A stretch of 64,000 nucleotides of DNA from positions 1 through 64,000 of the forward strand of contig JAGVLO010000001.1 of assembly GCA_020049775.1 (NCBI GenBank), read 5' to 3'. Numbering within the stretch: position 1 is the first letter of the stretch; each line of letters starts with the position of its first letter. Source of the stretch: Alphaproteobacteria bacterium. GTDB lineage: Bacteria > Pseudomonadota > Alphaproteobacteria > Rickettsiales > SXRF01. This document shows, one piece after another, positions 3,812 to 61,018 of this stretch. The notes under the pieces were generated by a model. The model was not told where the DNA came from, searched no databases, and saw only the letters and a program-made list of their open reading frames with translations. Position numbers and translations under genes: made by a program.

Positions 3812-3840
3812 CTCCTGCAGTTACTTACTAGGCACAATAA

Positions 3841-3875
3841 AAAGCCAGGCCTTCACCAAAGGGCCTGGCTTTTTA
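3841..3875. terminator. Bidirectional Rho-independent terminator
   Basis: A 9-bp perfect stem (AGCCAGGCC at 3843-3851 with GGCCTGGCT at 3862-3870) has a 10-nt loop, a T run on its right and an A run on its left. It lies between the convergent Tyr-repeat gene and murU and can end both transcripts. Confidence 0.92.
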
Positions 3876-3887
3876 TAGGCTATAAAA

Positions 3888-6194: not shown

Positions 6195-6375
6195 CAATCC
6201 ACGCCATCTGAATTGCTTCCAGGATTTTTTCGTTGCAACCATCTGGTTTATCGTTAAATTCCGGAATCGAAGCAACCCATTGTTTTAAATCCGTAAAACG
6301 AAGGTTAACATTGTCCGCATCTGGATGAATCTCTTCGAGTCGTATGGCAATTTCCCTAATATCAACCCAGCGCAT
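6181..6375 (-). CDS. iscX: Fe-S cluster assembly adaptor IscX
   Basis: A small acidic protein of 64 aa that aligns along its whole length with the 66-aa E. coli IscX as I recall it: W-x-D-x-REI near the N-terminus, the RFTDLKQW core, then NEKILEAIQMAW and an acidic end. IscX binds IscS (cysteine desulfurase) and tunes iron supply during cluster assembly. It normally closes an isc operon; here no other isc gene is nearby, and instead it heads the tsaE-amgK-murU run, overlapping tsaE by 14 nt. The placement is unusual, but the sequence match is strong. Confidence 0.9.
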   Translation of the reverse strand: MRWVDIREIAIRLEEIHPDADNVNLRFTDLKQWVASIPEFNDKPDGCNEKILEAIQMAWIDERG

Positions 6376-6475
6376 TCTGATTATCCTTCAATTAAAAACA
6401 CAATTTTAATATAGTCGCGCTATTATTCAATACAACCATTGAAAAATATACAAAAATCATGCAGCATTATAGAGT

Positions 6476-7687
6476 ATGAAGTTAAAAAATCTATTTATCA
6501 TCCTTTTGATTCTGAAGTTTCGGAAGTTCTTCATCCTGCTGGTGGCGGCCGGTTCCGGTGCGTTGATTCATTACATACGTTACCCTGAGGGTATTCCCAC
6601 CAACCAAGACCCCTATGCGTCTGAACAAGAAATACAGGAAGTGCAGCAGTCACAAAGCAATGAAGGGGATGTGTATTCCAGCGTAGCCGGTAAAGGCAGC
6701 TTGTATGAAACCCTGCAAAACGCACGCGAGGGTGCTAAAACAGGCAAAGAATATACCGGTAGGGATTTTGGCCCAGTCACCACAAAGAAAACGCCCACAC
6801 AATCACAATACCAGGATTACAACAACAGTAGCCAGTCGGGGGGTATCGGTAAAGTAGGCAGTGCCGGTTCAAGGTCACCCAGCGGAAATTATGGCAGTAA
6901 TCCCTATGCCAAAGAGCAATCTTCATCTGATGATGTCGCTTTGCTGCAAGCCGCTGCAAAAGGGGATAAAGTCAATGTAGATCGTCGTCTTTCTGCCGGA
7001 GCAAAAATAGACAGCCGCGATAATGAACGGCGCACACCGCTGATGTATGCCAGCGCAAATGGCTTTGAGGAAATTATAGACCGTCTTGTCGCCGCGGGGG
7101 CAAACCCCAATTTTAAAGACCGTGCCGGAAACAACGCCTATGACTACGCCGCAGGCCGAGGACTGGTAGAAACCGTGCAGTATTTGCTGGACCGCAACCG
7201 CGCCAAGGACGACCGCCATTATATTGAATTTGCACAAACCATTCGCGCCGTTTATGCCGGCGACACTTCCCTGTTGCCAGCCGGCAGCGGCAAGTTAACA
7301 TCGGTCAACCGTCTCAACCCGGACGGTCAGGCACCTTTACATATCGCAGCGGGCAATGGCTCTATCGAGCTAATTAACGCACTTATCAAGCGTGGCGCAG
7401 AAGTAAACCTTGCCAACAAGGATGAGCAAACGCCGTTGCACTGGGCAGCATGGAACAACCAACCGGAAAGCGCCGAAGCCCTGCTGGTTGAAGGCGCTTG
7501 TGTATTTCAGGGCGAAGCCGCCGGAAACAATGCCTTGATGCTTGCTGCTCAAAGCGGGAGCAAGTCAGTCGCGGAAGTGCTATTGAAATACGGTGCAGAA
7601 AAAGGTATCGCCAATAAGCAAGGCAAAACTGCCGCCATGCAGGCAGAGGACCGCGGCTTCAGAGACCTCTCAACTATTCTTAAATAA
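6476..7687 (+). CDS. Membrane-anchored ankyrin-repeat protein
   Basis: The 403-aa protein begins with a hydrophobic segment (about residues 5-35) that could be an uncleaved signal anchor or signal peptide, then a Gln/Ser/Gly-rich linker (about 45-150), then about six ankyrin-like repeats (150-403). Recognisable repeat cores are RTPLMYASANG, QAPLHIAAGNG, QTPLHWAAWNN and NNALMLAAQSG. It probably exposes a protein-binding ankyrin domain outside the cytoplasmic membrane; partner unknown. Divergent from iscX with 100 nt between them, and convergent with the TPR gene, ending 5 nt before its stop. The ribosome-binding site is weak, so a downstream start cannot be excluded. Confidence 0.8.
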   Translation: MKLKNLFIILLILKFRKFFILLVAAGSGALIHYIRYPEGIPTNQDPYASEQEIQEVQQSQSNEGDVYSSVAGKGSLYETLQNAREGAKTGKEYTGRDFGPVTTKKTPTQSQYQDYNNSSQSGGIGKVGSAGSRSPSGNYGSNPYAKEQSSSDDVALLQAAAKGDKVNVDRRLSAGAKIDSRDNERRTPLMYASANGFEEIIDRLVAAGANPNFKDRAGNNAYDYAAGRGLVETVQYLLDRNRAKDDRHYIEFAQTIRAVYAGDTSLLPAGSGKLTSVNRLNPDGQAPLHIAAGNGSIELINALIKRGAEVNLANKDEQTPLHWAAWNNQPESAEALLVEGACVFQGEAAGNNALMLAAQSGSKSVAEVLLKYGAEKGIANKQGKTAAMQAEDRGFRDLSTILK

Positions 7688-7692
7688 CAGTA

Positions 7693-10600
7693 TTATTTCT
7701 TGGTGCCGCCTATGGCATCCAGACCGGCGATTTTTATACGCGCGCGGTAATTTTCTACAAATGAGCGTGTCTGTGACAGCGAACTCATAATATCGTCAAA
7801 ATTGGTGGGCGTAGGCTCCACTTCGGTTGCCGTGATAAAATTAAAGAGCGGCTTATATGGATTGTTAGTCGCTAGCAGCGGCTCGAAATAATCGCGCAGA
7901 TATTGCAACTGGACGCGATTATCCTGGAAAATATAGGCGAGCGCCAACTTGAGTACGGCATCACTCTCATCCAGCGTAAGCGGTGCGGTCACGTCCTTGC
8001 GCGCCTTAAGTATGGACTCAACACCAGAAATTACACGTGTCCAGTCTTTCTGCTGCCAGAAAATGCCTACGCGAATGCTCTCGGCATCAGACGATATATC
8101 GTTGGCAATAACCTGTAGCGCCTTGTCATGTTTATCAAGCTGACTGAGTGCTTCTGCCAGCAAGCGGTTGCGTACCAGCCCCAGCGGCTGCGAAATTTCG
8201 CCATACACCGAGTCTTGCAATGCCAGCAATGCCTTTTTGGGATTGCGGTTGAGCAGATGCACGGTTGCCAGTTTTACGCCTGCCTCTGTGCGGGGTTCTT
8301 TTTCGGTTTCACGCATCTGGCGGTCAAGCAGCGCTGCCGCTTGATCCAGCAGATCAACTGCTACCAGTTTATCTGCCAGCATGTTCACGATTTCATTGCC
8401 GACATTGCCGCGCGGCACCTGATTTTTATACTGGTAGAATAAAGTAAGCACTTCAAGCGGGGGCATAGTATCTGCAATGCCTTCATCGAACATTGCTACG
8501 AACGTGTCTTCCATCTTGCGTGCCATTTCAATAGCGGCTGGCGTATTGGGAAATGATTCAACACCGCCGGACCATATACGCATGGCGTTGGTGTAATCCT
8601 TGCGCTCCGAATACATGCCGCCAAGCAAGCCCAATACCTTCATTTCCATATTATCGCCATGCCACGCCATACGCAGGCGCTCAAGCCGGTCGATTGCCTT
8701 TTCACGGTCTATAGTCCCCTGCTCCATGCCCCATAATATGCGTGAAAATTCTGCCCGTGCCTGTACAAAGGGAGCGCGGTGATTTTCAGCAAGCTTGTCC
8801 CACATCTCAATGGCTTCATCCTGTTGACCGGTAGCGGCGGAAATAACCGCCAGCAGGTAGTTAACATAATCCTGAATCCCAGGCAGGAGGTTTCCATCCT
8901 GCAACGAATCAAACACCTTCAATGCTGTGTTATATTCCTTGGCCTCAACTGCCCTGTCTGCCGCGACAATCGCAAGACGCTGGCGGAACAGCGGCGGATA
9001 CTTACTGATATAGTCGTTATTTATATCCATGTAGCTGTACTGACCGGGATTGCCGAGCAGGTCGGCAAGCATGCTACGCCAATAATCGACTTCCTTGTTG
9101 TTGTTCAGCTCGGATGCTGAAAAATCACGCGCAGCTTCTGCATAGCGCGCCATCAGAAAATTCGCCGCACCATGCATGGCAGCAAGTTTTGCACTGCGGT
9201 AAAATACGATACTGGTACGCGAAATACTCTCCAACTGCCCCAGCGCTTCGGGGGCCATGCCTTCGCTGAGAAAAATCTGCGCCAGGCGTAAGCGTGCGCG
9301 GTTTGCATCATCTACCGTTTTTGCCGAGACAATCTCTTGCAGAAGTTCGGTTTTTAATTTGTTGCGGTCTTTATCTTCGGGGACTTTCCACGCATTGAAC
9401 GGAAAGAGTGTGCTGCTGCTTTGCAATACAGGCTGTGGGCGTTTTTCATCAGTGCTGGCTGCGGTAGGCAATCCCGGCGTCAGCGTAATACCCTGGCGCG
9501 GGGAAATTCGCAGGCCGTTTCGCTGCTGCAGCACCTGCACATCGTCAGCTTTTTTCATCACCACAATGCCCTGTGCTGTTTCCAGCAGGGTGAAGTCAAT
9601 GAATTCGCGTTTATACAGCAGGCCCTCACCCAGCTTGAACGATGGCGTTATCACCAAAGTATCGCCGACTTGAGGATCGGTGATTTCAAACGATTCGGAC
9701 ATTTCCAGCGCCGGTATGAATACATGCGGCGGCACTGGCGGATCTGTTTTCAACTCAACCTTAAGCGCATTGGATATCAGCCTGCTTTTCGGAGTAAGCA
9801 GAATCGCCCATTCAAATTTGCCTTCTTCTTTGGCAATCGTAGGGAATACCGTGCTTTCAACGGGCATGCGCAGCGCAGTCACCTGCTGCGCGGGGAAAAT
9901 TTCCGCCTTGCCTATAACCGTTTGTGGCAGGTTATTAAAATCTGACAAATCCAGTGCAACATGTTTGTTAAACACAATCCACAACATGCCTGAGCGAATA
10001 AACACGGCAGATGCCGTACGCTCATTAAACGGAAAACGTAACGTAGCACTGTCATCAGCAGCAGAAATGCCTACTTTCAGCGCACCGGGTATTGCGGCAT
10101 CCGTTGCCTTGGCTGGTGTTTCATCACTCCTTTTTACCGACTCGTCTGCCGGCTTTTCCGGGTTCAGGAACGGTTCTTCAAGGACACTCTTTTTTTCTTT
10201 TGGCTTTAACTCCGTCTCCGTAAGTTTTTTGTCTTCCGGTTTTGCAGACGCTGCCTCAGATTTATCTTCTTTTGCTGCTGATTCTTTATCTTCTTTTGAT
10301 ATCTTCTTTTTGTTAAGCGCCGACTTAATCATGTCCGATACTTTTTCGATCGTACCTTTGTCAACTTCCGGCTCTACTTCTTCAATTACCGCAGGTGACG
10401 CAGGCGCTGCCGTGGCTGTTTGTTCTTGTGGTGCTTCTTCTGCTGCAGCGGGCTGGGTTTCCGCCGCCGGCGCTGTCGTTTTCTCGTCGGTGCTGGCAGC
10501 AGGCTTAGTTTCTGCCTGCGCAACAGGAGCGACAACAGGAATAGGCTTTGGCTCTGGCTTAGCCTCGGCAGCTGCGGGAGGTTTTTCTTCTGCTTTCGCT

Positions 10601-30903: not shown

Positions 30904-32643
30904 CTATATCCCGAATAAATCTCTGTATGCGTGTGAATTCTTAAGCAGCTCATCATGCGTTCCGGTAGCACGCACTTCACCGCTGTCCATCATAATCATC
31001 TTGTCGGCATTCATGACTGTCGATAAGCGGTGGGCAATGATAATGGTAGTGCGGTTCTTGGTGAGTTGCTCCAGCGCCTCCTGAATTTCCGACTCTGTTC
31101 TTGGGTCAAGCGCAGATGTTGCTTCATCAAGCAGCAATATCGGGGCATTGCGCACAAACGCACGCGCAATAGCTATGCGCTGTTTTTGCCCGCCCGAGAG
31201 ATTTTGTCCGGCAAAGCCAAGCCTCGTATCATAGCCGTCAGGCATCGCCATAATAAAATCATGGCACTTGGCAGCCTTTGCCGCTGCAATGATTTCCTCT
31301 TCCGTTGCGCCTTCCCTGCCATAACCTATGTTGTTGCACGCCGTATCATCGAAAATAAAAATATCCTGCGATACAAGGGCAATACTGGCACGCAGGGAGT
31401 TGATGCTGGCTTCATTGGTATCGTGATTATCAATTGTGATAGTGCCAGATGTCGGGTCATAAAACTTGAGCAGCAGGTTAAAGATAGTGGATTTACCACT
31501 GCCAGAATAACCAACAATCGCTGTTTTCTTACCGGCTTCCATGGTGAGGCTTATGCCATTTAAAGCCCGGCCGCCATTGGGGTACTGGAAAACGACATCT
31601 TTAAATTTGATTTCACCGGACGTAATCTGAATTTTGATGCCTTGATCACGGCTGCTGCGGCGAGGTTTCGTATCAATGATTTTATAAAAACGCTCGGTAT
31701 TAACCAAAGCTGCGCTCATAATGCTGCCTGTGCTGGTCAGCGCCCTGATAGGACGCGATATCATCATCAGTGACGTAGTAAACGCAATCAACTGTCCTGC
31801 CGTCATCTGGTCGTGGATAAGCTGGTAACCGCCATACCATATGACAAAGGCAACAGCCACGCCTGCCAGAATCTGCATCATGGTAGGCGTAAGGTTGGCA
31901 ACGCCAATAACCTTGTCGTTCGTTTTTTCAATGTCATACATGTACTGGCCGACCTTGCTAATCTCAAAGTCTTCCTTGGCAAACGCCTTGATGACGCGTA
32001 TGCCCTCGATGCTTTCCAATACACGCGAATTCATCAATATGGTTTTTTCATTGGACTGGCTGACCAGCTTTTTAAGACGTCGCATAATTTTCAGCATTGG
32101 ATAATAGGCAACCGCAAAGGCCGAGAGCGCAATCACCGTCAGCTCAAAACTCTGGTAAACCATTACCATAAACAAGCCAATCGACGTAATCAGCTGCTTA
32201 ACCCATGCGTTGAAAAAGCGCTGGACACCACTGGCAATACCAATGGTTTCACCACCAATGCGCGACAGCAGATTGCCGGAGTCATGCTCGGAATAAAACT
32301 CGATTTCGTTATTTATAATATGGCGAAATAAGTCTTTGCGCGTATCGGTGATAATCGCATTTCCGAATCTTGCCATCAGCAAGTTGGAGTAGTAGGTCGC
32401 AATCGCCTGCACTACGCACAGCACCACCACCGCAATGGGGATATACATTAAATACGTGAGATCTTTATCGCGAAAAACCTTATCAAAAGCCTGTTGCAGC
32501 AATAAAGGCTGTAGCGCCGTTGTAGCAGAGATAATCAGCAGCAACGCCACGGTTACCGCCATCATTCTGTAGTGTTTTCTTACATAGTCTCTATACAGCC
32601 GTTTCACCAACTGCATAGTATGTTTTTCTATTAGTTTTTTCAT
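30904..32643 (-). CDS. MsbA-like ABC exporter
   Basis: A 579-aa half-transporter: six-helix exporter domain (about 20-320) followed by the ATPase with Walker A GYSGSGKST, signature LSGGQKQR and Walker B ILLLDEATSALD. This is the type that flips lipid A core or other lipid-linked cargo outward. Its place at the downstream end of the glycan locus suggests lipid-linked glycan or lipid A as cargo, but the family also carries peptides. An internal Met at residue 10 could be the start; no ribosome-binding site decides. Confidence 0.88.
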   Translation of the reverse strand: MKKLIEKHTMQLVKRLYRDYVRKHYRMMAVTVALLLIISATTALQPLLLQQAFDKVFRDKDLTYLMYIPIAVVVLCVVQAIATYYSNLLMARFGNAIITDTRKDLFRHIINNEIEFYSEHDSGNLLSRIGGETIGIASGVQRFFNAWVKQLITSIGLFMVMVYQSFELTVIALSAFAVAYYPMLKIMRRLKKLVSQSNEKTILMNSRVLESIEGIRVIKAFAKEDFEISKVGQYMYDIEKTNDKVIGVANLTPTMMQILAGVAVAFVIWYGGYQLIHDQMTAGQLIAFTTSLMMISRPIRALTSTGSIMSAALVNTERFYKIIDTKPRRSSRDQGIKIQITSGEIKFKDVVFQYPNGGRALNGISLTMEAGKKTAIVGYSGSGKSTIFNLLLKFYDPTSGTITIDNHDTNEASINSLRASIALVSQDIFIFDDTACNNIGYGREGATEEEIIAAAKAAKCHDFIMAMPDGYDTRLGFAGQNLSGGQKQRIAIARAFVRNAPILLLDEATSALDPRTESEIQEALEQLTKNRTTIIIAHRLSTVMNADKMIMMDSGEVRATGTHDELLKNSHAYRDLFGI

Positions 32644-32671: not shown

Positions 32672-33733
32672 TTACCAGCACTCCGTTGGCCAGTGATATT
32701 GTTCCGACAGGTCCATACTGAAAGTTCTTTCCATGATATATTTTGCCACCAGCCGCTCATTAAAGCAGCCATGGTATTTCTCCCAGCCCTTACGCGCTAT
32801 TTTCTGGCGAGCCTCTGGGTTCTGTTTATAATACAGTGTTTTTTCTAACAGCTCTTCTTTTTCGCTGAAGAACACCAGTTCTTTGTCTTCCTCAAACAAA
32901 TCTTCGAACTTATTGTCACGCGTGGTGAAGGTCAACAGACCACTGCCCATGTAGTGCGACATCCGGTCAGAGGAATAGAGGTATAAATCCTCATCCGCAG
33001 CTTTCTCGTAATTGCCACGAGTCCATATCTGGCTGATATTCACACCCATCTTGGATTTGGCAATCGTCTCGAAATATATGGCGTTATACAGCAATGGTTT
33101 TCCGTTCATGCCATAATAGTCAATCTTTACGCCGTTCGCTTCCAGATAAAGGGGGAACGCTATGCGGCGGTCATTTTCAACCGATCCTTTGAGAGCGCGC
33201 AGCGCCCAGAACACATCATTTTCCAGATCTGCATGCTCAAAACAGCGCGGCCATTCAATCGAGGCGTCAGCAATGTTGGGAACAAAAGAAACCACTTTGC
33301 CATTGCGCGAAAACTTCTTCAGACCCGCGCCTGCCGTGGTAATAAAAGTGGCATCTACCACATCCAGCTTATTGTTGATATTTGTCGCATTATGCGGATT
33401 AAAAATAATATCTACATTGAACTGCGCCACACGCACATACTTCAATATTTTTCTGGCGCGCTCTATGGTGTGCGGCTCTATGACATCAGCATGGCATAGC
33501 AGTATCATATCTGGCTTGAAATTAGCGCAAACGTCCAGAAAGAATTTGTTGCAGTATTTCCTGCCGGCAGCAATCATGCCCAAAGGCGAAGCACAGCGTG
33601 CAATATCTCGGTCGCTTAGAAACAATACGTGGTGTCCGTTGCGTGTAAAGCCATTATGCAACTTGGCGCACTGGTCATAGTACCTTGCGCCGCGGTGCTT
33701 ATGATTACCATTGCCTACAAGCAGTAACTTCAT
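32672..33733 (-). CDS. CgeB-like glycosyltransferase
   Basis: A 353-aa GT-B-like protein related to CgeB/spore maturation glycosyltransferases. The C-terminal half holds the donor-site region: YEKAADEDLYLYSSDRM, GSGLLTFTT, and a tail of the type QNPEARQKIARKGWEKYH that closes this family. It would add a sugar to a surface polysaccharide or lipid-linked precursor. Its start overlaps the next gene upstream by 4 nt. First gene of the glycan locus after the MsbA-like exporter. Confidence 0.8.
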   Translation of the reverse strand: MKLLLVGNGNHKHRGARYYDQCAKLHNGFTRNGHHVLFLSDRDIARCASPLGMIAAGRKYCNKFFLDVCANFKPDMILLCHADVIEPHTIERARKILKYVRVAQFNVDIIFNPHNATNINNKLDVVDATFITTAGAGLKKFSRNGKVVSFVPNIADASIEWPRCFEHADLENDVFWALRALKGSVENDRRIAFPLYLEANGVKIDYYGMNGKPLLYNAIYFETIAKSKMGVNISQIWTRGNYEKAADEDLYLYSSDRMSHYMGSGLLTFTTRDNKFEDLFEEDKELVFFSEKEELLEKTLYYKQNPEARQKIARKGWEKYHGCFNERLVAKYIMERTFSMDLSEQYHWPTECW

Positions 33734-34584
33734 GCGATTCGCGCCGTCCCGTCCTGTTTATACGCCTTGATCCCCAGAAAAAATGAGAACAGTCCCATGA
33801 TCTCGTACAGGCTGACTATTACTTTAGCTTTGCGCATCAATATCAGGTTTTTAATGATATTGAGAAAATTCTTGAGTGTTTTAGAAATGAATTTTTTCCA
33901 TGCTTCCGTCATGCCGAAATGTTTTCGGTAATAGTATGAGCGCGACCACGCCGAGTGCCATGCCCTAATTTTAAGGACGCGCATGGAGCTGGTGGTGGAC
34001 GTACCCCACTCATGTTCAGCTTCCGCCTGTTTGCATATGGCCAGCTTATAGCCAGCCGTCTGAAAACGGTCACACAAGTCAGTTTCCTCGAAGAACAGGA
34101 AAATATTCTCATCAAACAGGCCGACTTTCTTGAGCGCATCCATGTTGAACATCATAAGCGCACCTACGATCCAACCGGTATAGCAAAGCCCCTGTTCGTT
34201 ATAGGCATGCTGTTTCTGGAATATCTTCTGCCCATTTTCATAATGGAAAGTATTTGCGCCGATCATGCCGATATCAGGGTGTTTTCTGATGTTTGCCAGC
34301 ATCACTTGAACAGACTGCGCATCAATGCGTACATCAGGATTAAGCAGCATGGCATAGGGAGTGGTCGCCATGGAAAGTCCGACATTAGCAGCCTTGCCAT
34401 AACCAATATTGCTGTTGCGCACAATTTCGACATGGCTGTAGCGCGAGACAACTTCAACCGTGCTGTCGCTGCTGCCGTTATCGAGAACAATAATGCGCTG
34501 GTCTTTCGGCAAAAGCTTCAGGCAGCCCTCCACCACCTTGGCGCTGTTGTACGTAACGATAAGGAAGGTAATGTCCTGAGCCAT
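33730..34584 (-). CDS. Family 2 glycosyltransferase, rhamnosyltransferase-like
   Basis: A 284-aa GT-A enzyme: LIVTYNSAKVVE, the VLDNGSSDST motif, a LNPDVRID metal-binding motif in place of the classical DxD, and FFEETDLCDR with the catalytic-base region. The order is that of the WcaA/rhamnosyltransferase group. A short hydrophobic stretch near 245-275 may attach it to the membrane. Overlaps the CgeB-like gene by 4 nt; 14 nt separates it from the FkbM gene upstream. Confidence 0.87.
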   Translation of the reverse strand: MAQDITFLIVTYNSAKVVEGCLKLLPKDQRIIVLDNGSSDSTVEVVSRYSHVEIVRNSNIGYGKAANVGLSMATTPYAMLLNPDVRIDAQSVQVMLANIRKHPDIGMIGANTFHYENGQKIFQKQHAYNEQGLCYTGWIVGALMMFNMDALKKVGLFDENIFLFFEETDLCDRFQTAGYKLAICKQAEAEHEWGTSTTSSMRVLKIRAWHSAWSRSYYYRKHFGMTEAWKKFISKTLKNFLNIIKNLILMRKAKVIVSLYEIMGLFSFFLGIKAYKQDGTARIA

Positions 34585-34598
34585 GCAGCTACACTAAA

Positions 34599-35441
34599 TC
34601 AGATGGCTTCAAACACAGCGTTATGCGCCAGTTCATCTTCACTGGCTCCCTGTTCAAAGCGTGGTTTTTTGCTAGCCGTGTAATGCGAATAAGCATGACG
34701 GTAATCAAGCTTTTCAAAAAATTCAATGACCTTGCTTTTTTCACCCGGGTTGATTTCCACCTGAACGCTGCGCGGCTTGTTGAAGGACGAGAGAATGCGC
34801 GTCATTCCTTTGAGGATACTCAGTTCGTTGCCATCCACGTCAATTTTGATGGCATTTGGCATCGGCACCATTTTCTTTTCAACCAACTCATCCAATGGTA
34901 CGGCACAAACGATTTCCTCAAACTTGGGTGTAAAATCGCGGTGGTCGGGCAGTTTTTTGTGGCCGAGCTGCGTCATGGATGCGCCGCTTTCAACCGACAT
35001 GTAATTAAGCTTGAACACATCACTGCGTTCACCCAGCGGAATGGCAATCGGCGAAATGCTGGATAGCAGGTTATTCTTGCTGATATTATCTACAAGGCAG
35101 ACAAAGTTGTATTTATGCGGTTCAAAGGCAAACACCTTCACATCTTTTGCCTGACGCGCGGCATAAAGCGAATAAAGCCCGACATTGGCGCCGATGTCAA
35201 AAAATACATCGCCGTCCTTCACGGTGTCCTTTATCCATTTGATCGTGCCTTCCTCCTTGCTGAAGAAGGTCAGGTAGCGTTGCAAATCGCCCTTTCCCGC
35301 AGGTGTGAAATGATACTCTACGTTGCCGTCATGCACAGTGAGGCCGAAGCGTGTCATGCGCGTCAGGTGCTTTGAAATATTATAGAGTTTCTTTGCAGGC
35401 CACAGGTTGCTGGACTCGCGTTTCAGGTTCACCTTTATCAT
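34599..35441 (-). CDS. FkbM family methyltransferase, copy A
   Basis: A 280-aa SAM-dependent O-methyltransferase of the FkbM type: FFDIGANVGLYSLYAA (SAM binding), FAFEPHK, and IKIDVDGNELSILKGM, the family's catalytic-side motif. It would methylate a sugar hydroxyl. It overlaps the oxygenase gene by 4 nt. A paralogous pair in the opposite orientation lies at 37041-38629, with near-identical motifs (KIDVDGNEL, NKPRSVQVEINPG). Confidence 0.87.
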   Translation of the reverse strand: MIKVNLKRESSNLWPAKKLYNISKHLTRMTRFGLTVHDGNVEYHFTPAGKGDLQRYLTFFSKEEGTIKWIKDTVKDGDVFFDIGANVGLYSLYAARQAKDVKVFAFEPHKYNFVCLVDNISKNNLLSSISPIAIPLGERSDVFKLNYMSVESGASMTQLGHKKLPDHRDFTPKFEEIVCAVPLDELVEKKMVPMPNAIKIDVDGNELSILKGMTRILSSFNKPRSVQVEINPGEKSKVIEFFEKLDYRHAYSHYTASKKPRFEQGASEDELAHNAVFEAI

Positions 35442-36223
35442 GATATGTTCTCTATGTTGATGGTTATGGTTTTCCTGAGTGCGCTCTCAGGTCCTGTCAT
35501 TGGCGACACGGAATGCCATGAATTATAGGTTTTGACAAACAAAACGCACTGGTTGGGATTAAATGGAAACGTCTTAACAGGGGTTACTTCCTCAAACGGG
35601 AGCTGAAAGTTTACATTGTTATAAATTTTGGTGATGTCTTTCGGCTTATCAATATTGGTGCCACCGCCCCATTCTTCTTTCCACTCACCGGGCTTGATGA
35701 ATGTCAGCACAAGCGTCACCAGCTTGCGCGTGGCGTCCGTGTGCGGAAGGATGTTACCGCCATTGGCAGACATCAGTGAAAACTCAAAGCGGCTGCGCAG
35801 CAATTTTTTATCAAATGCGCGGCCAATAATGCTGCGGCGCTTTTTCGCCATTTCACGCGTGTACCAGAAGCGGCGGATATTCTGATCAATGCCATGCCCG
35901 CGCAGGAATTCGAACACTTCCTTGATGAATTCCTTGGTTTTGACCTGTTCATAAAAATCTTTCCAAGCCTTGTTCTCTTTCAAAAAATTGAAATAGAATT
36001 CGCGGTTGTTCTTTTCTGCCAGCGAATATTTATTGCCAAGCGCAGGCTTGAACTTGAACATATCCAATGAGGGGTATGTATCACATAATTCCTTGTAATC
36101 CGCCTCATTCAGGAAGTTGGGGATATAGCAAATGGGATATGGCTCGTAGTCAAACTGAGCGTTCTGATAATTAAATTTATGCATAACAGCGTCACGAAAA
36201 TCTATGTTTGTTGCGGTACTCAC
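35438..36223 (-). CDS. 2-oxoglutarate/Fe(II) oxygenase, copy A
   Basis: A 261-aa protein with the double-stranded beta-helix oxygenase signature: iron ligands His-x-Asp in LPHTDATRK and the distal His in YNSWHSVSPM, followed by the 2OG-binding Arg in ALRKTITIN. It resembles prolyl-4-hydroxylase-like oxygenases found in glycan clusters. It could hydroxylate or oxidise a sugar or a lipid. It overlaps both the FkbM gene (4 nt) and the TylF gene (4 nt), so all three are one transcript. Confidence 0.82.
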   Translation of the reverse strand: MSTATNIDFRDAVMHKFNYQNAQFDYEPYPICYIPNFLNEADYKELCDTYPSLDMFKFKPALGNKYSLAEKNNREFYFNFLKENKAWKDFYEQVKTKEFIKEVFEFLRGHGIDQNIRRFWYTREMAKKRRSIIGRAFDKKLLRSRFEFSLMSANGGNILPHTDATRKLVTLVLTFIKPGEWKEEWGGGTNIDKPKDITKIYNNVNFQLPFEEVTPVKTFPFNPNQCVLFVKTYNSWHSVSPMTGPESALRKTITINIENIS

Positions 36224-36960
36224 TGTTTAATCACCATGGCCTGACCAGTGGGAATATAGAAGAGCGTCTCATTCTTGTCGGCAAAGAACTCCTCCATGGC
36301 TTGCTTAGCACCAGGACATGAGCTAAATCCATAATCATCGCATATGATTACACCCCCGGGGCTCACCCTGTCATAGAAGAATTTGAGGCTGTCGATAGTG
36401 GGCTGGTAAAGATCGACGTCGATATGCACAAACACAAACTTCTTGTTAGCAACATCGGGAAAGCGGTCCGGCACCCAGCCTTTGTGGAACTCGCAGTTAT
36501 TAAACATGGAAAGATTTTTGCGGGTAACAGCCTCTTCGACACAAATATCACCCTTTTTCCACGCAGTGACCTTGCTTTTTTTGTCATGATCCTCAGCCGT
36601 TGGCTCAGACAACCCCTCGAAGGAGTCGAAAAGATGATGTGTTCTGGACGAGTCATTAAGCCCCTTATTAATAAAAAAGCTGCTGCTGCCAAACCTTACA
36701 CCCACGTCTGCGCTGTCACCCGGTATATTGTGCAAGCGCTTGGCCGTGTTGAAAAGAAAGAAGCGGCGGTCATTGGACATGCCGAATTCACGCGGCCATT
36801 CTTTCTGGGCTGCCTTGAAATCCGCGTCATTGATCCAAATCAAATTCGGCTTGTAATATTCGAAATTATATTTCTTGCATATGGCCTTTACCGAATGCCA
36901 ATATGCCTTCCGCCGCGCTTTGGGGTTAGGAGATAACTTTTTGAGAGTGTTTGCTAACAT
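36220..36960 (-). CDS. TylF/MycF-type sugar O-methyltransferase
   Basis: A 246-aa methyltransferase of the macrocin-O-methyltransferase family: DVGVRFGSSSFFINKGL (SAM pocket), HHLFDSFEGL with the first acidic residues, FVHIDVDLYQPTIDSL (metal site) and CDDYGFSSCPGAKQA. Such enzymes methylate sugar hydroxyls in antibiotics and surface glycans. It is the leading gene of the leftward transcript and diverges from oxygenase copy B with 80 nt between. Confidence 0.87.
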   Translation of the reverse strand: MLANTLKKLSPNPKARRKAYWHSVKAICKKYNFEYYKPNLIWINDADFKAAQKEWPREFGMSNDRRFFLFNTAKRLHNIPGDSADVGVRFGSSSFFINKGLNDSSRTHHLFDSFEGLSEPTAEDHDKKSKVTAWKKGDICVEEAVTRKNLSMFNNCEFHKGWVPDRFPDVANKKFVFVHIDVDLYQPTIDSLKFFYDRVSPGGVIICDDYGFSSCPGAKQAMEEFFADKNETLFYIPTGQAMVIKQ

Positions 36961-37040
36961 ATAATTATCTTGACTCCGAGTTTATTTGAGGGCGTTCTGC
37001 CTTGTAAATACCGTTTGGGAACATACATTGGAACTTGTCT

Positions 37041-37790
37041 ATGATGAAGCTGAATTTTAATAACGCGCAATTTGATTACAAGCCTTTTCCGATTTGCTAT
37101 ATACCTGATTTTCTTGATGAATCAACTTATAATGAGTTAAGCAGCTCCTATCCGGACATGAGCAAGTTCGCCTTCAAGACCAAATTGGGGGGTAAATATT
37201 CACTGGCAGAGCGTAATAACGGCGAGTTTTATTTCGATTTTCTGAAGAGTAACGCCTGCTGGAAAAACTTTTATGACCATGTAAAGAGCAAAAAATTTGC
37301 ACTGCAGATGATCGATTATGTTAAAAGCAACAATATCGACCTCGGCTTCAAACAGGATATCTGGTGGACAGAAAACGGCAACATGCCATGGCGCAATGCC
37401 CTTGCCCGTTTTATGAACAAGCGGGTGATGATGAGCAAGTTTGAGTTCTCCATCATGCCGGCCAATGGCGGCCATATTCTGCCGCATACCGACTCCGCCA
37501 ATAAAAACCTTACGCTGGTATTGTCATTCATCAAACCGGATGAATGGAATGAAGCATGGGGCGGCGGCACCGAGGTTAACGAGCCCAAAGACGAAACCAA
37601 GACCTATAACCACGTGAACAAGGTGTTTCCCTTTGAAGATGTGAAGACCATCAAAACCTTCCCCTTCAAGCCCAACCAGTGCGTGTTATTTGTAAAAACC
37701 TATAATTCATGGCACTCGGTCGCGCCCATGACAGGACCGGAGACCGCCATGCGTAAGACAGTGACGATTAATATCGAGAGTTTTACATGA
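37041..37790 (+). CDS. 2-oxoglutarate/Fe(II) oxygenase, copy B
   Basis: A paralog of the oxygenase at 35438. Same landmarks: a common N-terminus (NAQFDYKPFPICYIPDF), iron ligands in LPHTDSANK and YNSWHSVAPM, and the Arg in AMRKTVTIN. The 249-aa length is set by the ATG at 37041; a TTG at 37035 is the alternative. The stop overlaps the FkbM start by 4 nt, as in copy A, so the two-gene module was copied as a unit. Confidence 0.82.
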   Translation: MMKLNFNNAQFDYKPFPICYIPDFLDESTYNELSSSYPDMSKFAFKTKLGGKYSLAERNNGEFYFDFLKSNACWKNFYDHVKSKKFALQMIDYVKSNNIDLGFKQDIWWTENGNMPWRNALARFMNKRVMMSKFEFSIMPANGGHILPHTDSANKNLTLVLSFIKPDEWNEAWGGGTEVNEPKDETKTYNHVNKVFPFEDVKTIKTFPFKPNQCVLFVKTYNSWHSVAPMTGPETAMRKTVTINIESFT

Positions 37791-38629
37791 TACGCACCAC
37801 CCTGTATCGGAATCAGAATAATTTTAAACAGGTTAAGAAGCGCTTCAACCTAGCCAATATGCTTTCAAAACCCTTCAGGTTTTGTCTGAGCGTTGTTGAC
37901 GGCCCGATGAAACTGGATTTTTATCCAACTTTTAAAGCGGAATTGTACCGTTATGCCACTTTCTTTACCAAGGAAGAAGGCACTATCAAGTGGCTGGAAA
38001 ACACCCTGCAAAAAGATGATATATTTTACGATGTCGGCGCAAACCTTGGCCTTTACTCATTGTTTGCGGCCAAACTCAATAAAAACGTCAAGACCTATGC
38101 GTTTGAGCCGCATAAGCTAAATTTCGCCAGCCTGATAAACAACGTACGGGATAACGGATTGCTCAAGGATATTATCCCGATTTCCATACCGCTCAGCGAT
38201 ACCGCGGAGCTGACCAGCTTATATTACAAATCGCTCTATAACGGTGGTTCAATGAACCAGCTTGGCAAAAAGAATGATGCCTTCAGCAGCAGGGACTTCA
38301 ATGTGTCTTTTGAAGAAATCATATACGCCATGCCTATGGACGCCCTCGCCGGAAGCGTGCTTCCGTTCCCTACGGTTGTAAAGATTGATGTGGATGGCAA
38401 CGAACTCGCCATCCTCAAGGGCATGACCAATGTCCTGTCCGCTCCCAATAAGCCAAGGTCGGTGCAAGTTGAAATCAATCCGGGCTATAAAACCAGCATT
38501 ACTGATCTCATGAACAGTTATGGCTATGATCTGGATTACTGCCACTACACTTCCAGCGCCGATGAATGGGCAGAAGAACTAAGCAGCAAAGATGACGTGC
38601 CACACAACGCCGTATATAAACTGCGTTAA
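37787..38629 (+). CDS. FkbM family methyltransferase, copy B
   Basis: A paralog of the FkbM gene at 34599 with the same length (280 aa) and motifs: FYDVGANLGLYSLFAA, YAFEPHK and VKIDVDGNELAILKGM. The C-terminus (DDVPHNAVYKL) corresponds to ELAHNAVFEA of copy A. It overlaps oxygenase copy B by 4 nt and is convergent with the next methyltransferase. Confidence 0.87.
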   Translation: MIRTTLYRNQNNFKQVKKRFNLANMLSKPFRFCLSVVDGPMKLDFYPTFKAELYRYATFFTKEEGTIKWLENTLQKDDIFYDVGANLGLYSLFAAKLNKNVKTYAFEPHKLNFASLINNVRDNGLLKDIIPISIPLSDTAELTSLYYKSLYNGGSMNQLGKKNDAFSSRDFNVSFEEIIYAMPMDALAGSVLPFPTVVKIDVDGNELAILKGMTNVLSAPNKPRSVQVEINPGYKTSITDLMNSYGYDLDYCHYTSSADEWAEELSSKDDVPHNAVYKLR

Positions 38630-38631
38630 GC

Positions 38632-39543
38632 CTATTTTTTCTTCTTAAAAGGGCGCTTGATACCCATCTTAAGCTTGGAAATGCTTTCTTTGCGGCCCGC
38701 TTTTACAATGCATTGTTCACTCTTCTTCACCGATTTAACCAGCGGCTCTACCACGCTTGCCTTACCCTTGGTAATCAGTATCGCATTGTGGAAGTCCGCT
38801 ACTTTCCGGAAGCCTGCCATGTGGGCAAGATGGGTGAGCGATTCGCAGGTGAAGTAAAATTTATGCGCGAGATGGAAATCGCCCAGCAATGTCTTTTTCT
38901 TGCGGGTGTTTTCAATCAGCGGCACTTCGATATAGATATAGCCTGTATCGCTGATAAGCGGTGAAATCTGCTGCAGGAACTCGACCGGACGATTGATATG
39001 TTCCAGCACATGCGACAGCACCATCATGTCGTATTTATTGTCTTCGGTGAATGCTTTCAGCCCCTGCTTCATGCCGTATTCCATGTATTTCTTATCGAAA
39101 TCCTGAATATAGACATCGTAACCGGCGTCTTTAAATGCCTTCATGCGTCCACCAGCGCCGCTGCCATAATCAAGCACCTTTGCTTCCTGCGACTTCAGGA
39201 AAGATTTAAGCATCTTCAGCAATGCCGCCGAAGATTTCGACTGCCTTTCAAACAAGCCTTCGGCTGGCACGTCGCCGCGCTTAACCGGCCCATACACCTC
39301 TTTGTAATAGGTTTCGATGGATTTGTCGGACAAGTAGGGATTGATACGCAGCGTGCCGCAGCTCGCGCATTGCACCACGGTGAAGTGGTTACGGTGGCGC
39401 GTAGCGGTAGATACAATCTTATAGTCCTCGCCGCCGCAGAAGCAGTCGTAATATTTGAAATCAAAATCCTTCAGCTTGCCGCCCGTTTCATCATGCAGCT
39501 TTTTGAAGCGGTGAAGGTCATTGTTGTAGTTATAAACCAGCAT
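38632..39543 (-). CDS. Class I SAM methyltransferase with N-terminal zinc-finger-like motif
   Basis: A 303-aa protein. Residues about 33-70 hold CFCG and CASCG pairs, a zinc-binding-like module found ahead of some sugar methyltransferases. The SAM domain follows with VLDYGSGAGGRMKAF and LSHVLEHINRPVEFL. The C-terminus is Lys-rich. It likely methylates a carbohydrate or glycolipid. It is the last gene of the leftward operon coming from 43963, 28 nt after the family 8-like glycosyltransferase. Confidence 0.85.
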   Translation of the reverse strand: MLVYNYNNDLHRFKKLHDETGGKLKDFDFKYYDCFCGGEDYKIVSTATRHRNHFTVVQCASCGTLRINPYLSDKSIETYYKEVYGPVKRGDVPAEGLFERQSKSSAALLKMLKSFLKSQEAKVLDYGSGAGGRMKAFKDAGYDVYIQDFDKKYMEYGMKQGLKAFTEDNKYDMMVLSHVLEHINRPVEFLQQISPLISDTGYIYIEVPLIENTRKKKTLLGDFHLAHKFYFTCESLTHLAHMAGFRKVADFHNAILITKGKASVVEPLVKSVKKSEQCIVKAGRKESISKLKMGIKRPFKKKK

Positions 39544-39571: not shown

Positions 39572-40339
39572 TTATTTGATGCGCCTGATTTTATCAGCCG
39601 AGTCTGAAAGCTTTTCACGCGCCATGTCTGTCAGGGAAAACACATCGGCTTCCTTGCAATAATTCGCGCCTGCATATTCTTTGAACCATTCCACCGAATA
39701 TTCAGTGTCCTTGAATTCAGGATAGAATGGGCCGCCAATCGTGTAATGCACCAGCGAAGGCTGCTCTACCTTCTGTTCATTATCTTCGGTATAGGCCGCC
39801 AGATAGTTCCATTTCAGCGGCAGGCCGCCAATGAGATTGTCGTCGCCCAGCCATTTGAACTGGTGCAGCTCAAGGCCGGAAGCCTTGTTCACATAATCCA
39901 GCGACAGCGCTTTGCATTTGGCGTTATTGAACAGCACCACCGACGACCAGTTTTTCTTTTCATACGATGTCTGCACCGCGCCCATGAATTTCTTTGCTTC
40001 ATGCGGGTGGTGGTCGTGTTTCACGCACATCACGGAATATTTGTCGTCGCGCAAGTTCCAGAGGTTTGCAATATCGTCCATCAGGATAATATCGTTATCC
40101 ATGAATATCGACCAGCCCTCGTAATTTGAAAGATACGGTGTCAGGAAACGCGAAAAAGAAAACTCGGTCGATTGCACGCTGACCATTTCGCGGTTGAAGA
40201 TAGATTTCACGTTGTTGATATTGATAGGGCAAACCAGCACGGGCATGGAGCTGCGCTGCGTGATGCTATGCACGAGCGTCTGGAACGCGACCGGAATACG
40301 GTTGTCATACCCCACAAAAATTCTAATCGGTTGCGTCAT
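39572..40339 (-). CDS. Family 8-like glycosyltransferase
   Basis: A 255-aa GT-A-like protein; RIFVGYDNRIPVA start, then FMDNDIILMDD containing the DxD metal site, and GLPLKWNYLAAY. Similar small proteins appear in alphaproteobacterial glycan clusters. The ATG at 40339 is chosen because GGAGA lies 7 nt upstream; the frame extends to 40360 but overlaps the neighbouring stop codon. It lies in the same operon as the two large genes upstream. Confidence 0.8.
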   Translation of the reverse strand: MTQPIRIFVGYDNRIPVAFQTLVHSITQRSSMPVLVCPININNVKSIFNREMVSVQSTEFSFSRFLTPYLSNYEGWSIFMDNDIILMDDIANLWNLRDDKYSVMCVKHDHHPHEAKKFMGAVQTSYEKKNWSSVVLFNNAKCKALSLDYVNKASGLELHQFKWLGDDNLIGGLPLKWNYLAAYTEDNEQKVEQPSLVHYTIGGPFYPEFKDTEYSVEWFKEYAGANYCKEADVFSLTDMAREKLSDSADKIRRIK

Positions 40340-40350
40340 CTGTTTCTCCA

Positions 40351-42186
40351 TTATGCGCAATGCTTGATTGCATTGTTCCTAGCCTGCGAAAGAACCACCA
40401 ACTCATCAACGAAGTCATTGACGTCAATCAAATCTTCTTTTTGCCAGGCAATGCCAATGTTCCGCTGGCTCAAGAGCATATCATAATGTTTCATAACCGC
40501 TTTTATCATGGGTGCAACATCATTTTTACTTTTTACGCCATAAATCAGCGGGTAATGCCCCTCGCTAGCAGGCGTGTGGCTGCACGGGAAATGGAAATAT
40601 TTTTTACGGTAAGTATATAATAATGTTGGAATATTGGCAGGCACAGACTCTTCCATAGTGGTCGAAAGATTGGATACTACCATGTGGCATTTCTTAACCA
40701 GCTTGGAAAAGCCAATGCCCGTATCCAGCACCACTTTATGCCCGATACCCAGCCTGTCGATATGCTCCTTGATGACCTGATAATGCGGGTCAAACTTGAA
40801 GGGCTTCAGCTTCATGATCACCTTGATGCCGTCCACATCCTTTATCTGCTCAAGGAACTCCAGCGACTGCGATAAATACTCAAACGAGGTCTCGCGACAC
40901 CATGGTATATGCAGCCAGCCGATGCGCGTATAGACATCGGTGTAATTGCCCGCGTGGATGATGATAAAATCTTCCTTGCCGTCATACGGCGTTTGCAGCG
41001 TTTCATCATACAGCCGCACAGGGCGCATCTCGTAATTGAAATCGGGATGCATATCCTTTGCCAGCGCTAGCGTCAGCGGAGATTTTGGAACAAAAATGGT
41101 GGTCAGCTCGGTCAGCAGCCTGTCCTGACTTCCCCATGAGCGCTGCACCAAATCAGAGATGGGGTGCGACTTGTTGAGATTGTGCGTGCCGTGATTGACC
41201 AGCACCGAGATATTATGCTCGCCGTTATTGAGGTGCATCTGCTCGATCGTGCCGCGTATGAACGGATACATGGCATGGTCGCCGATATTGATATTGGCGT
41301 CTATCAGGCGGATTACCTCCATGCCGAAATCATACTCGGCACGCAGCACGGGGATAAAACGGATGACGTTATCCAGCACTACGCGGCGCATATGCGGATT
41401 GCGGATAGAAATAGTCGGAATATTATTTTTATACACCCTGAATTTGCGCGGGTTGATGGCCTTGAACAACGGCACCGGCTCGTTGAGGCTGGTGTTTTCT
41501 TTTTTTAGCCACAGGCAGGTTTTCAGGTAAATGGTGAAAGTGCGAAACGCCATTACGCCCATGCGTCGCAGCGAATAAGACACATGCGATACATCTTTTT
41601 CCACCAGCGCCTTCACGATATGGCGTGTGGCGGGATTGACAAAGTCGACAAGGCGGATAGTAGAATTCGCCGTTGTTTTCGCCACCAGTTTTTTATTCAG
41701 CCATTTGGCGATGCGATAATTGAAATAGGTATAATCCGTCTTGGAATAGAGATTGATTTCCGACGCCGCCTGATTAATGACGCGGAAACAGAACTCGCCA
41801 AAATCATCGCTGTGACAAATTTTTCCGCCCTCCTCCCAGTAATATCCACCAAACCGGTCTTTAACCTTGGCGAGGCAGTAATACACATAATACGCCGTGG
41901 ACAAAAAGTAATAGAGATACACCCTCAGGCTGCGTGATTCGCCATAGCGCAAGCCGTAGAAATGCTTGCACTCTTCCGTTACCTTGTCCAAATCGCGTAT
42001 GGTAATTGCCGCCGTTTTTGCGTGCAGGTGCGGGCCATACAGTTCCATCGAGGTGATGATATTGTAATGTTCTTTATCAAAGTAGTATTTTGCTTCGGGG
42101 CAAAAGGACAATACGCTGTCCGGCTTTACGCCTTTTTTGATAAAGACCTTGGCCTGCGCCGCGTTAAACACCAACCCCAATTTCAT
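40351..42186 (-). CDS. Large GT-B-like surface carbohydrate protein, paralog 1
   Basis: A 611-aa cytoplasmic protein; the second half looks like a GT-B glycosyltransferase (FVPKSPLTLALAKD, IIHAGNYTDVY, VIMKLKPFKFDPHY, MVVSNLSTTMEESV and IPTLLYTYRKKYFHFP). The last segment resembles the donor-binding half of polysialyl- and heptosyl-type transferases. The first half (about 1-290) is unlike any domain I know and could bind the acceptor. It is a tandem paralog of the next gene, 10 nt away. The start at 42186 avoids overlap with the upstream stop. Confidence 0.7.
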   Translation of the reverse strand: MKLGLVFNAAQAKVFIKKGVKPDSVLSFCPEAKYYFDKEHYNIITSMELYGPHLHAKTAAITIRDLDKVTEECKHFYGLRYGESRSLRVYLYYFLSTAYYVYYCLAKVKDRFGGYYWEEGGKICHSDDFGEFCFRVINQAASEINLYSKTDYTYFNYRIAKWLNKKLVAKTTANSTIRLVDFVNPATRHIVKALVEKDVSHVSYSLRRMGVMAFRTFTIYLKTCLWLKKENTSLNEPVPLFKAINPRKFRVYKNNIPTISIRNPHMRRVVLDNVIRFIPVLRAEYDFGMEVIRLIDANINIGDHAMYPFIRGTIEQMHLNNGEHNISVLVNHGTHNLNKSHPISDLVQRSWGSQDRLLTELTTIFVPKSPLTLALAKDMHPDFNYEMRPVRLYDETLQTPYDGKEDFIIIHAGNYTDVYTRIGWLHIPWCRETSFEYLSQSLEFLEQIKDVDGIKVIMKLKPFKFDPHYQVIKEHIDRLGIGHKVVLDTGIGFSKLVKKCHMVVSNLSTTMEESVPANIPTLLYTYRKKYFHFPCSHTPASEGHYPLIYGVKSKNDVAPMIKAVMKHYDMLLSQRNIGIAWQKEDLIDVNDFVDELVVLSQARNNAIKHCA

Positions 42187-42196
42187 TTGGTTACTT

Positions 42197-43963
42197 TCAT
42201 GCCGCCACTTTAAGTATATTGTGCGCAAACGCATCGGGTTTCAGTATTTCATCCTGCTGCCACGCCACCTTGCCGTAAAGTTCGGGGTCAAACAGTTTTT
42301 CCCGGTTGTTGCGGGTGAAGTCGATAATGTCCTTAATCGATTTGCGGTCGCGCACCAAATAGGCGGGGTTCAGCCCTTCGCGGTTTAATACTTGTGCAGG
42401 AATGTGGAAATAGCCCTTGTGATAGGTATGTATCATGACCGGAATATGATTGATGAGCGCTTCTTCCACCGTACCCGATAAGTTGCATATCACCATGCTG
42501 GCTTTGGCGAGCAGGTCAGAGAATTTGCTGTCGGTATCCACCACCACCTTGTCGTGCAGTTTCAGGCGGTCGATACATTCACTCACCAGCTTGTAATGTG
42601 CGGGCGCCTTTTTGGGCTTGAGCTTTATCACCAACTTCACGCCGTCGATATGCTGCATTTCCTCAATCAGCTCAACCATGCTCAGCAGATATTCCTCCGC
42701 CGTTTCCTTGCACCACGGAATGTGGAAATACACATCGGTAAAATTTCCGGCATGCAGCAGCATGAATTCATCCGTTGGCGCCGGATGTTTTTTAATTTCC
42801 TGAAACACATTCAGCTTGTGCGTGCGGAATTGGTTTTCAGGGCGTATTTCCTTCGCCAGCACTTCCGTGAGAGGTGATTTTGGCACATGGTCGGTAACGA
42901 ACTGGGTTATCATCCTGTCCTGCGCCGCCCACATCTTTGCCGCGATTTTCGATATCGGGTCATATTGCACGGTGTGCGTGCCGTGGTTCATCATCACATA
43001 CGTGCCGCCGTAAGCGCGCATACGTTCCTGCGCGGCCAGCACATACGGATATTTTGCAAAATCGGAAATGCCAATTTCAGGTTTAAAGAGGTCTATCAGC
43101 TTCTGGCCGATTTCATATTCCGTTTTCAAAAACGGGATATACGATTTTATGGCAATGCGCGTGGCCTGTGTCACTTCTGCGTAGGCAAGCGCAATATCCG
43201 GTGCTGCAACCTGCTGCTTGTATTTATGCGGGTTGTTAGTGCGGAACACCCACACCGGCTTGTCTTTTTTCGATGCGCGCAGCGCCCATGTGCAGCCTTT
43301 GATAAAAAACTTCAGCGATTGCACCATGTTCTTGCTGATTTTTTTGCTGGCCACCACAATGTATTCACCGCTGCTGTCCAAAATCGGATTTATCATTTTG
43401 CGCGGCAGCTCGTCGCCGAAATTGATAATCAGCTTTTTGCCGCGCAGTCGCAGTATCAGCGCCAATATGCGGTTGCAGGCTTCCGTCAGCAGATAATGGG
43501 CAAAGGAAAAATTCGGATTTGAATAGCCGGTGATTTTGCTTTTGGCGTGATCCACCAGCTCAAGATACATTTGCGGATAATTGCCGTGCTTTATGCTGCT
43601 GTCCGCCCCTACCCAGAATAGTCCATGCCCGTTTTTTTTCATGAAGCGGGTGGAGAAATACAGGTAATAGGCAATGCTCAGGAAGTGGTAGAGGTACACA
43701 GAAAGGTTTTGCGCCTCACCGTCCGACAAATTGTAGAAACGCTGCATTTGGGGCCTGAGTTGCTCCAAATCACGGTCTATCAGCACGGCCGCTTTCGCAT
43801 GTGAAAGCCCGCGATACTGCTCTACCGCCGACATCACTTTATAGCCTGCATTCTCTAAAATCTGGCGGGTGGCCGGACAAAAACTCAGCACTACATCCGC
43901 TGGCACTTTCTGGCCAGCGATGACCTGCGCCTGTGAAGAGTTAAGTGCTACGCCGTACTGCAT
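42197..43963 (-). CDS. Large GT-B-like surface carbohydrate protein, paralog 2
   Basis: A 588-aa paralog of the preceding gene, alike from end to end: VLSFCPATRQIL near the start, MMNHGTHTVQYDPIS, HVPKSPLTEVLAKE, LLHAGNFTDVYFHIPWC, VIKLKPKKAPAHY and CNLSGTVEEALINH. The central part differs most. It begins the leftward operon that ends at 38632. The pair may build an alternating polymer or act on two acceptors (inference). Confidence 0.7.
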   Translation of the reverse strand: MQYGVALNSSQAQVIAGQKVPADVVLSFCPATRQILENAGYKVMSAVEQYRGLSHAKAAVLIDRDLEQLRPQMQRFYNLSDGEAQNLSVYLYHFLSIAYYLYFSTRFMKKNGHGLFWVGADSSIKHGNYPQMYLELVDHAKSKITGYSNPNFSFAHYLLTEACNRILALILRLRGKKLIINFGDELPRKMINPILDSSGEYIVVASKKISKNMVQSLKFFIKGCTWALRASKKDKPVWVFRTNNPHKYKQQVAAPDIALAYAEVTQATRIAIKSYIPFLKTEYEIGQKLIDLFKPEIGISDFAKYPYVLAAQERMRAYGGTYVMMNHGTHTVQYDPISKIAAKMWAAQDRMITQFVTDHVPKSPLTEVLAKEIRPENQFRTHKLNVFQEIKKHPAPTDEFMLLHAGNFTDVYFHIPWCKETAEEYLLSMVELIEEMQHIDGVKLVIKLKPKKAPAHYKLVSECIDRLKLHDKVVVDTDSKFSDLLAKASMVICNLSGTVEEALINHIPVMIHTYHKGYFHIPAQVLNREGLNPAYLVRDRKSIKDIIDFTRNNREKLFDPELYGKVAWQQDEILKPDAFAHNILKVAA

Positions 43964-60115: not shown

Positions 60116-61018
60116 TTATAGCCCTAAACAGGCTAAATTTTCAGCCGGACAGGCAATCACATCCTGTATTTTCGGTGTCTTGGCGTAATCAAACGGTGCC
60201 AAGCGGTATCCGCCGCTGTTATAATCGCCCGACATAAAATAATAGAAGCGGTAATTCTCGGGGAACATCGCATAAAAATCCGCTTCACTACCCACAGCCT
60301 CACGGGTGGTGGGAGAAAGCTCGATAATAATCAGCGGGCGGTCGCGCAGCAAGGTCTGGCGCAGGCCGTCCAGTACGAATTTTTCGTAGCCCTCGACATC
60401 GGCCTTGATGATATTGACCTTGGAAATACCAAGCTCTGTCACCACATCGTCACCACGGCGAAGCTGCATGTCGCCCAGATAATAATTATCCTGCTTATGT
60501 CCGCTCCAGAACGACGCCGCGCCCAGGTTGCTGTCAGGTGCCGCGTAGAACGGCAGCATCTTGTCCTCGCTGCTCAGCCCGATGGAATGGACGGTAACAT
60601 TGCTGATGCGATTCAGGGAGAGGTTATATTCAAGCTGTTTGCGCACACGTTCGAACGGCTCAAATGCCTGTACGCTATCCACCAGCTTGGCCATGAACAA
60701 CGAGTGGTTTCCAGCATTGGCGCCTACGTCCACAAAGGTCAGGCGCTCACCCGTGCGCTTTTTCAGGCGCAGCACATAATCGCGAAGCAACATGAGCATG
60801 TACTTTTCATGCGCACCGCAGAAATAGACAAGCCTATCGATATAATTGACAATATTGCCGTTGAAGCGCATACCCCATGCCGGATCAAAAAACGGAGCTT
60901 CAAACGGATAGTCGCGCAACATAGCCGGATACAGGCGCTTGATAACCGAGCGCCTTGTTTTATACGGCAGCCAACGCTGCTTGCTGAGAAAAACAGAAAA
61001 ATTCTGCAACGAATTCAT
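60116..61018 (-). CDS. FkbM family methyltransferase, copy C
   Basis: A 300-aa FkbM-type enzyme: FVDVGANAGNHSLFMA, QAFEPFERVRKQLEYNL and IKADVEGYEKFVLDGL. It is only distantly related to copies A and B. It lies between ftsZ and lpxC, where most alphaproteobacteria have no gene; transcription probably comes from ftsZ or an own promoter. Target unknown; perhaps lipid A or a surface sugar. Confidence 0.85.
   Translation of the reverse strand: MNSLQNFSVFLSKQRWLPYKTRRSVIKRLYPAMLRDYPFEAPFFDPAWGMRFNGNIVNYIDRLVYFCGAHEKYMLMLLRDYVLRLKKRTGERLTFVDVGANAGNHSLFMAKLVDSVQAFEPFERVRKQLEYNLSLNRISNVTVHSIGLSSEDKMLPFYAAPDSNLGAASFWSGHKQDNYYLGDMQLRRGDDVVTELGISKVNIIKADVEGYEKFVLDGLRQTLLRDRPLIIIELSPTTREAVGSEADFYAMFPENYRFYYFMSGDYNSGGYRLAPFDYAKTPKIQDVIACPAENLACLGL

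Follow-up and report, generated by a model that had tools for sequence, protein, structure and literature searches.

A module made up of a 2OG-Fe(II) oxygenase gene followed by an FkbM-family methyltransferase gene is present in two oppositely oriented copies, A and B, in the window examined here, the whole 64,000-nucleotide stretch of DNA that was analysed. Protein trees indicate that the two copies most likely represent an old duplication of the whole module, which took place either in this lineage or in whichever organism donated the surrounding gene cluster. The same oxygenase-FkbM unit recurs in Verrucomicrobia and on five phage contigs, as a survey of other genomes proposed in a preliminary description established, and this recurring cassette is a more interesting result than the duplication. 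Every protein family involved is already known, save for two tandem proteins without a family match, and the duplication is real and module-level. The opposite orientation, already described, is borne out by coordinates and strands (Table 1) and by protein identities of 57% over 249 aa for oxA and oxB (E 9e-114) and 48% over 279 aa for fkA and fkB (E 4e-97), both of which lie, by these alignments, far above chance. A genome search recovered copies A and B as the sole two copies of the module in the source genome.

Table 1 The duplicated module and the surrounding cluster genes, with positions in the window
Feature	Positions	Strand	Basis or remark
MsbA-like ABC exporter/flippase	30904-32643	-	
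Glyco_trans_1_2 glycosyltransferase	32672-33733	-	
GT2 glycosyltransferase, rhamnosyltransferase-like	33730-34584	-	
fkA, FkbM-family SAM methyltransferase, copy A	34599-35441	-	PF05050, TIGR01444
oxA, 2OG-Fe(II) oxygenase, copy A	35438-36223	-	PF13640
tylF, TylF/MycF-type sugar O-methyltransferase	36220-36960	-	PF05711
Intergenic region, divergent, tylF to oxB	36961-37034	.	Sequence
oxB, 2OG-Fe(II) oxygenase, copy B	37035-37790	+	PF13640, 57% identity to oxA
fkB, FkbM-family methyltransferase, copy B, faster evolving	37787-38629	+	PF05050, relative-rate tests
Class I methyltransferase (Methyltransf_23)	38632-39543	-	Convergent with fkB
GT8-family glycosyltransferase	39572-40360	-	PF01501; relatives beside oxygenase-FkbM in Verrucomicrobia and phages
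627-aa protein without family match	40351-42234	-	31% identical to its neighbour
588-aa protein without family match, tandem relative	42197-43963	-	

The identical 4-nt overlap reported for both copies was confirmed as ATGA at each oxygenase-FkbM junction. Since other 4-nt overlaps are frequent within the window (tylF to oxA, glycosyltransferase to glycosyltransferase, and more), the overlap alone says little and was dropped as a sign of duplication, leaving protein similarity as the evidence for kinship. For oxB, an ATG start at 37041 is more likely than the TTG at 37035. Copy B is divergent from tylF across about 75-80 bp, and a promoter scan of this region gave signals not above those of shuffles; promoter and terminator signals were set aside, as shuffled sequence scored as well. 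The copies had been described as lying around a TylF gene. While tylF does lie between them, it is not flanked symmetrically but is the first gene of the copy A operon. Its product exceeds the PF05711 cut-off (87.7 versus 23 bits), belongs to the family of the TylF, MycF and NovP sugar O-methyltransferases, and has O-methyltransferases, including NovP and MycF-type enzymes, as its nearest solved chains. The gene nevertheless falls outside the recurring module, and it was rejected as a module component because no TylF relative was found beside the oxygenase-FkbM module in the compared loci.

Trees were constructed from 15 oxygenases, from 12 FkbM proteins and from both genes concatenated. In the oxygenase tree, copies A and B are sisters (support 98/96), joined next by Verrucomicrobia, then by Roseibium, then by others and phages, and placing A or B with Verrucomicrobia was rejected (AU p 0.023). 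The FkbM tree has the same branching order, with A and B as weakly supported sisters (84/88), and on its own does not reject a grouping of either copy with Verrucomicrobia (AU p 0.19 and 0.09). Concatenation again yielded A and B as sisters (98/96) and rejected the alternatives (AU p 0.028 and 0.018). The gene trees agree, and the copies do not fall in unrelated clades, the outcome that the preliminary description had equated with independent acquisition. A separate arrival of two related modules, set back to back by chance, is compatible with the FkbM tree taken alone and with the near-complete lack of the module across 263 order genomes and its absence from other members of the family, a distribution which suggests that the module probably arrived laterally. 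We nonetheless regard two arrivals as unlikely, given that the oxygenase and joined trees unite A and B and reject the alternatives and that the copies are adjacent and alike in base composition. Outside relatives reach only about 50% identity at best, so that sampling is sparse; this leaves some room for separate acquisition from unsampled donors and makes duplication here indistinguishable from duplication in the donor. Within the window, long DNA-level inverted repeats persist only inside the oxygenase genes, the longest being 281 nt at 72% (arms 35436-35716 and 37512-37792), and a recent duplication was discarded on this ground.

The two FkbM genes have diverged unequally, fkB having accumulated changes at about twice the rate of fkA (40 versus 19 unique changes with one outgroup, p 0.009; 37 versus 20 with the other, p 0.033); for OxB and OxA, relative rates do not differ significantly. 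It had been suggested that the substrate-facing parts differ and that the copies therefore modify different sugars. This was not supported, as mismatches between A and B fall at columns that are variable in all relatives (p 3e-11 and 1e-8) and no substrate site was located; such divergence was dropped as a mark of new specificity because it reflects generic variability. Different target positions for the two copies are possible, the one hint being the faster evolution of fkB.

The gene cluster holding the module spans about 30.9 to 44.0 kb. Module genes have a G+C content of 44-48% compared with mostly 50-56% for genes outside the cluster. The oxygenase was detected in five of 385 genomes of the class at E 1e-20, the source genome included, and close FkbM relatives among the 263 order genomes were restricted to the source genome, two further matches being distant. 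From the low G+C content together with the rarity of both proteins, we infer that the whole cluster was probably acquired laterally. Its tandem proteins (40351-43963) matched no family in Pfam or NCBIfam, and a search with one of them against solved structures and 50 related genomes returned matches only within its own genome. Elsewhere in the window, a third, distant FkbM gene (28% over part) is located at 60116-61018 beside LpxC, and a 403-aa ankyrin-repeat protein is encoded at 6476-7687.

On balance, we favour the interpretation that copies A and B are a unit duplication of a sugar-tailoring oxygenase-FkbM module serving a lipid-linked glycan of the cell surface, LPS or a similar one. It builds on homology, shared module ancestry, intact catalytic residues, operon structure and recurrence elsewhere, from which a sugar substrate, the order of the two steps and different positions for the two copies are presumed. 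The oxygenase would oxidise a carbon of the sugar, and the FkbM enzyme, translationally coupled to it, would O-methylate that sugar, probably at the newly installed hydroxyl; the adjacent glycosyltransferases would assemble the glycan and the MsbA-like transporter would flip it. The surface-glycan setting suggested earlier is backed by the glycosyltransferases, the MsbA-like flippase and LPS-type neighbours in relatives. To our knowledge, little has been described of 2OG oxygenases that hydroxylate the sugars of bacterial glycans, and the substrates of FkbM enzymes are mostly not established.

Both methyltransferases score above the curated cut-offs of PF05050 and TIGR01444 (57 and 90 bits for fkA, 42 and 66 bits for fkB), and the FkbM model (pLDDT 92.8) has an ordinary class I methyltransferase fold (Z 16-17). 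Against PF05575, the family of RfbT, the O-antigen methyltransferase of V. cholerae (PMC9929944), fkA scored 29.0 bits, narrowly over the cut-off of 27.9, and fkB gave no match. RfbT/WbeT belong to the same FkbM family and RfbT methylates O-antigen, whereas the window FkbM proteins are paired with an oxygenase and fkB falls below PF05575. FkbM genes are also included in enterobacterial flagellin glycosylation islands (PMC4875605), likewise as optional tailoring genes of a surface glycan; those islands differ in that the word 'oxygenase' is absent from the text of that report and in that the window cluster is without flagellin. At one further locus (L179), a different FkbM gene is preceded by PhyH, an unrelated 2OG oxygenase, a pattern consistent with hydroxylation and subsequent methylation as a recurrent theme.

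Two Verrucomicrobia (L007 and L178) carry the full module, oxygenase then FkbM, with a 4-nt overlap between the genes in L178. Both modules are followed by an opposite-strand GT9 heptosyltransferase, a KpsF/KdsD-type isomerase and a GT8 protein 53-55% identical to that of the window (55% for L007), and are preceded by an O-antigen ligase and other glycosyltransferases, which points to an LPS-type cluster. A comparable arrangement is seen on the B side of the window, where oxB and fkB are followed by the convergent methyltransferase and GT8. Oxygenase genes without FkbM were found in Roseibium (L004-L006; 52-54% identity) and at loci L025-L027 and L180.

The phage modules surfaced via FkbM searches only; oxygenase-led searches of phage and plasmid collections and a first scan of viral contigs gave no match. 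Searching viral contigs with FkbM led to related oxygenases on L031, L032, L033, L055 and L058/L059. All five phage contigs (L031, L032, L033, L055, L059) also encode a GT8 relative, and the oxygenase, FkbM and GT8 genes sit among structural genes. Oxygenase and FkbM share an ATGA overlap in L031, where only the final oxygenase codons are present on the contig, and in L032; they are separated by a methyltransferase gene in L033 and by two other genes in L055, while L059 encodes a fusion of the oxygenase with an MptE-like/methyltransferase protein. By comparison, seven viral contigs with a more distant FkbM have neither this oxygenase (0/7) nor a GT8 gene.

Among relatives recovered by FkbM-led searches, and hence not selected for the presence of the oxygenase, this oxygenase is nearby on 5/5 phage contigs and in L178. 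FkbM proteins of this subclade were thus always found near the oxygenase, which itself often occurs without FkbM; this is most simply explained if FkbM acts on what the oxygenase produces. The solitary oxygenases of many genomes and the intervening genes in L033 and L055 would also fit two enzymes that modify separate groups, their co-location explained by a shared pathway alone, but the tight pairing by 4-nt overlaps in several lineages and the failure to find a subclade FkbM without the oxygenase make this explanation rather doubtful.

A second alternative is that the cassette tailors O-glycans of surface proteins, such as flagellin and phage fibres, instead of LPS. On plasmid 3 of Aquicella lusitana (Coxiellaceae; L051), a distant oxygenase homolog annotated as hypothetical protein AQUSIP_RS11425 overlaps an FkbM gene by 4 nt beside flagellin and fliK; GT8 and a distant homolog of the oxygenase adjoin FliW, FlgL and FlgK in genome G014; three phage cassettes come after Ser-rich fibre-like genes and genes for MptE-like (Maf) proteins; and the FkbM genes of the enterobacterial flagellin islands point the same way. 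However, an MsbA-like transporter is part of the window cluster, no flagellin or other appendage genes lie near it, and the closest bacterial relatives adjoin LPS genes, the flagellar cases being distant homologs. A role in protein glycosylation therefore appears improbable for this cluster, and tailoring of a lipid-linked glycan remains the preferred reading.

As to the sugar itself, genes of ulosonic-acid type (KdsD-type, KdsA/KdsB, NeuB and PseF-like) are located near several relatives, some close and some distant (L007, L178, L040, L028, L037 and L041), which makes a Kdo-like sugar a candidate substrate; we treat this as a lead only. No ulosonic-acid gene is present among the annotated genes of the window cluster. 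Viral contig L040 carries, at 2638-8480, KdsA, a small protein whose gene shares a 4-nt overlap with that of a distant FkbM, and KdsB, and is a case of phage-borne Kdo genes adjoining FkbM. The Kdo hydroxylase KdoO has its own Pfam family, which the window oxygenases did not match, PF13640/PF13661 being the only families matched at E 0.001. More speculatively, and with low confidence, oxygenase-FkbM, usually with GT8, may be a portable cassette of bacterial surface-glycan clusters and tailed phages that hydroxylates and then O-methylates a sugar of ulosonic (Kdo-like) or similar type and, in phages, decorates the virion fibres.

Both oxygenases match PF13640 in Pfam. The Fe ligands of oxA (H161, D163 and H237) and the 2OG-type R250 are invariant in 15 sequences; with the HxD...H triad and the 2OG-binding Arg in place, 2OG/Fe-dependent catalysis is predicted. 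The oxygenase model (pLDDT 87) adopts a double-stranded beta-helix fold nearest to PolD and PasI (Z 21), with lower values for OGFOD1/Tpa1 (17-19) and prolyl hydroxylases (about 15), and PasI was also matched by sequence profile (E 2.7e-7). PasI of Photorhabdus, whose structure was deposited with an eight-carbon octosyl-acid ligand, and PolD of Streptomyces act on eight-carbon sugar acids, but they belong to a nucleoside pathway as opposed to a glycan cluster, and at 16-20% identity the likeness in fold shows no substrate. The window oxygenase, unlike these enzymes, has an extra low-confidence model segment at residues about 110-140, and residues about 100-140 form the most variable stretch of the oxygenases, which is modelled with low confidence at 120-140 and is shortened in phages. 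That PasI and PolD, the nearest folds, act on octosyl-acid nucleosides could hint at a small-molecule (nucleoside-type) biosynthetic cluster, which is very improbable given such low identity and neighbours that are glycosyltransferases and an MsbA-like transporter.

In the literature on FkbM with oxygenase, LPS or phage, of which our coverage was partial, the pair was not described. Being present twice in a single genome and preserved as a unit in different phyla and in phages, the module offers a compact system for finding both sugar hydroxylation of this kind and FkbM substrates, and if phages use the cassette to coat virions or to change host glycans, phage-host recognition would be tied to a new surface chemistry.

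More distant arrangements were also observed. Locus L025, which belongs to a further genome of the class, carries a tandem pair of oxygenases without an adjacent FkbM (8743-10317), which is an independent oxygenase duplication. In G001, the one other member of the genus that was searched, a distant oxygenase gene is divergent from a distant FkbM gene (L010). The G014 locus (L154), from the same family, additionally includes two GSCFA proteins and is possibly a flagellin glycosylation island.
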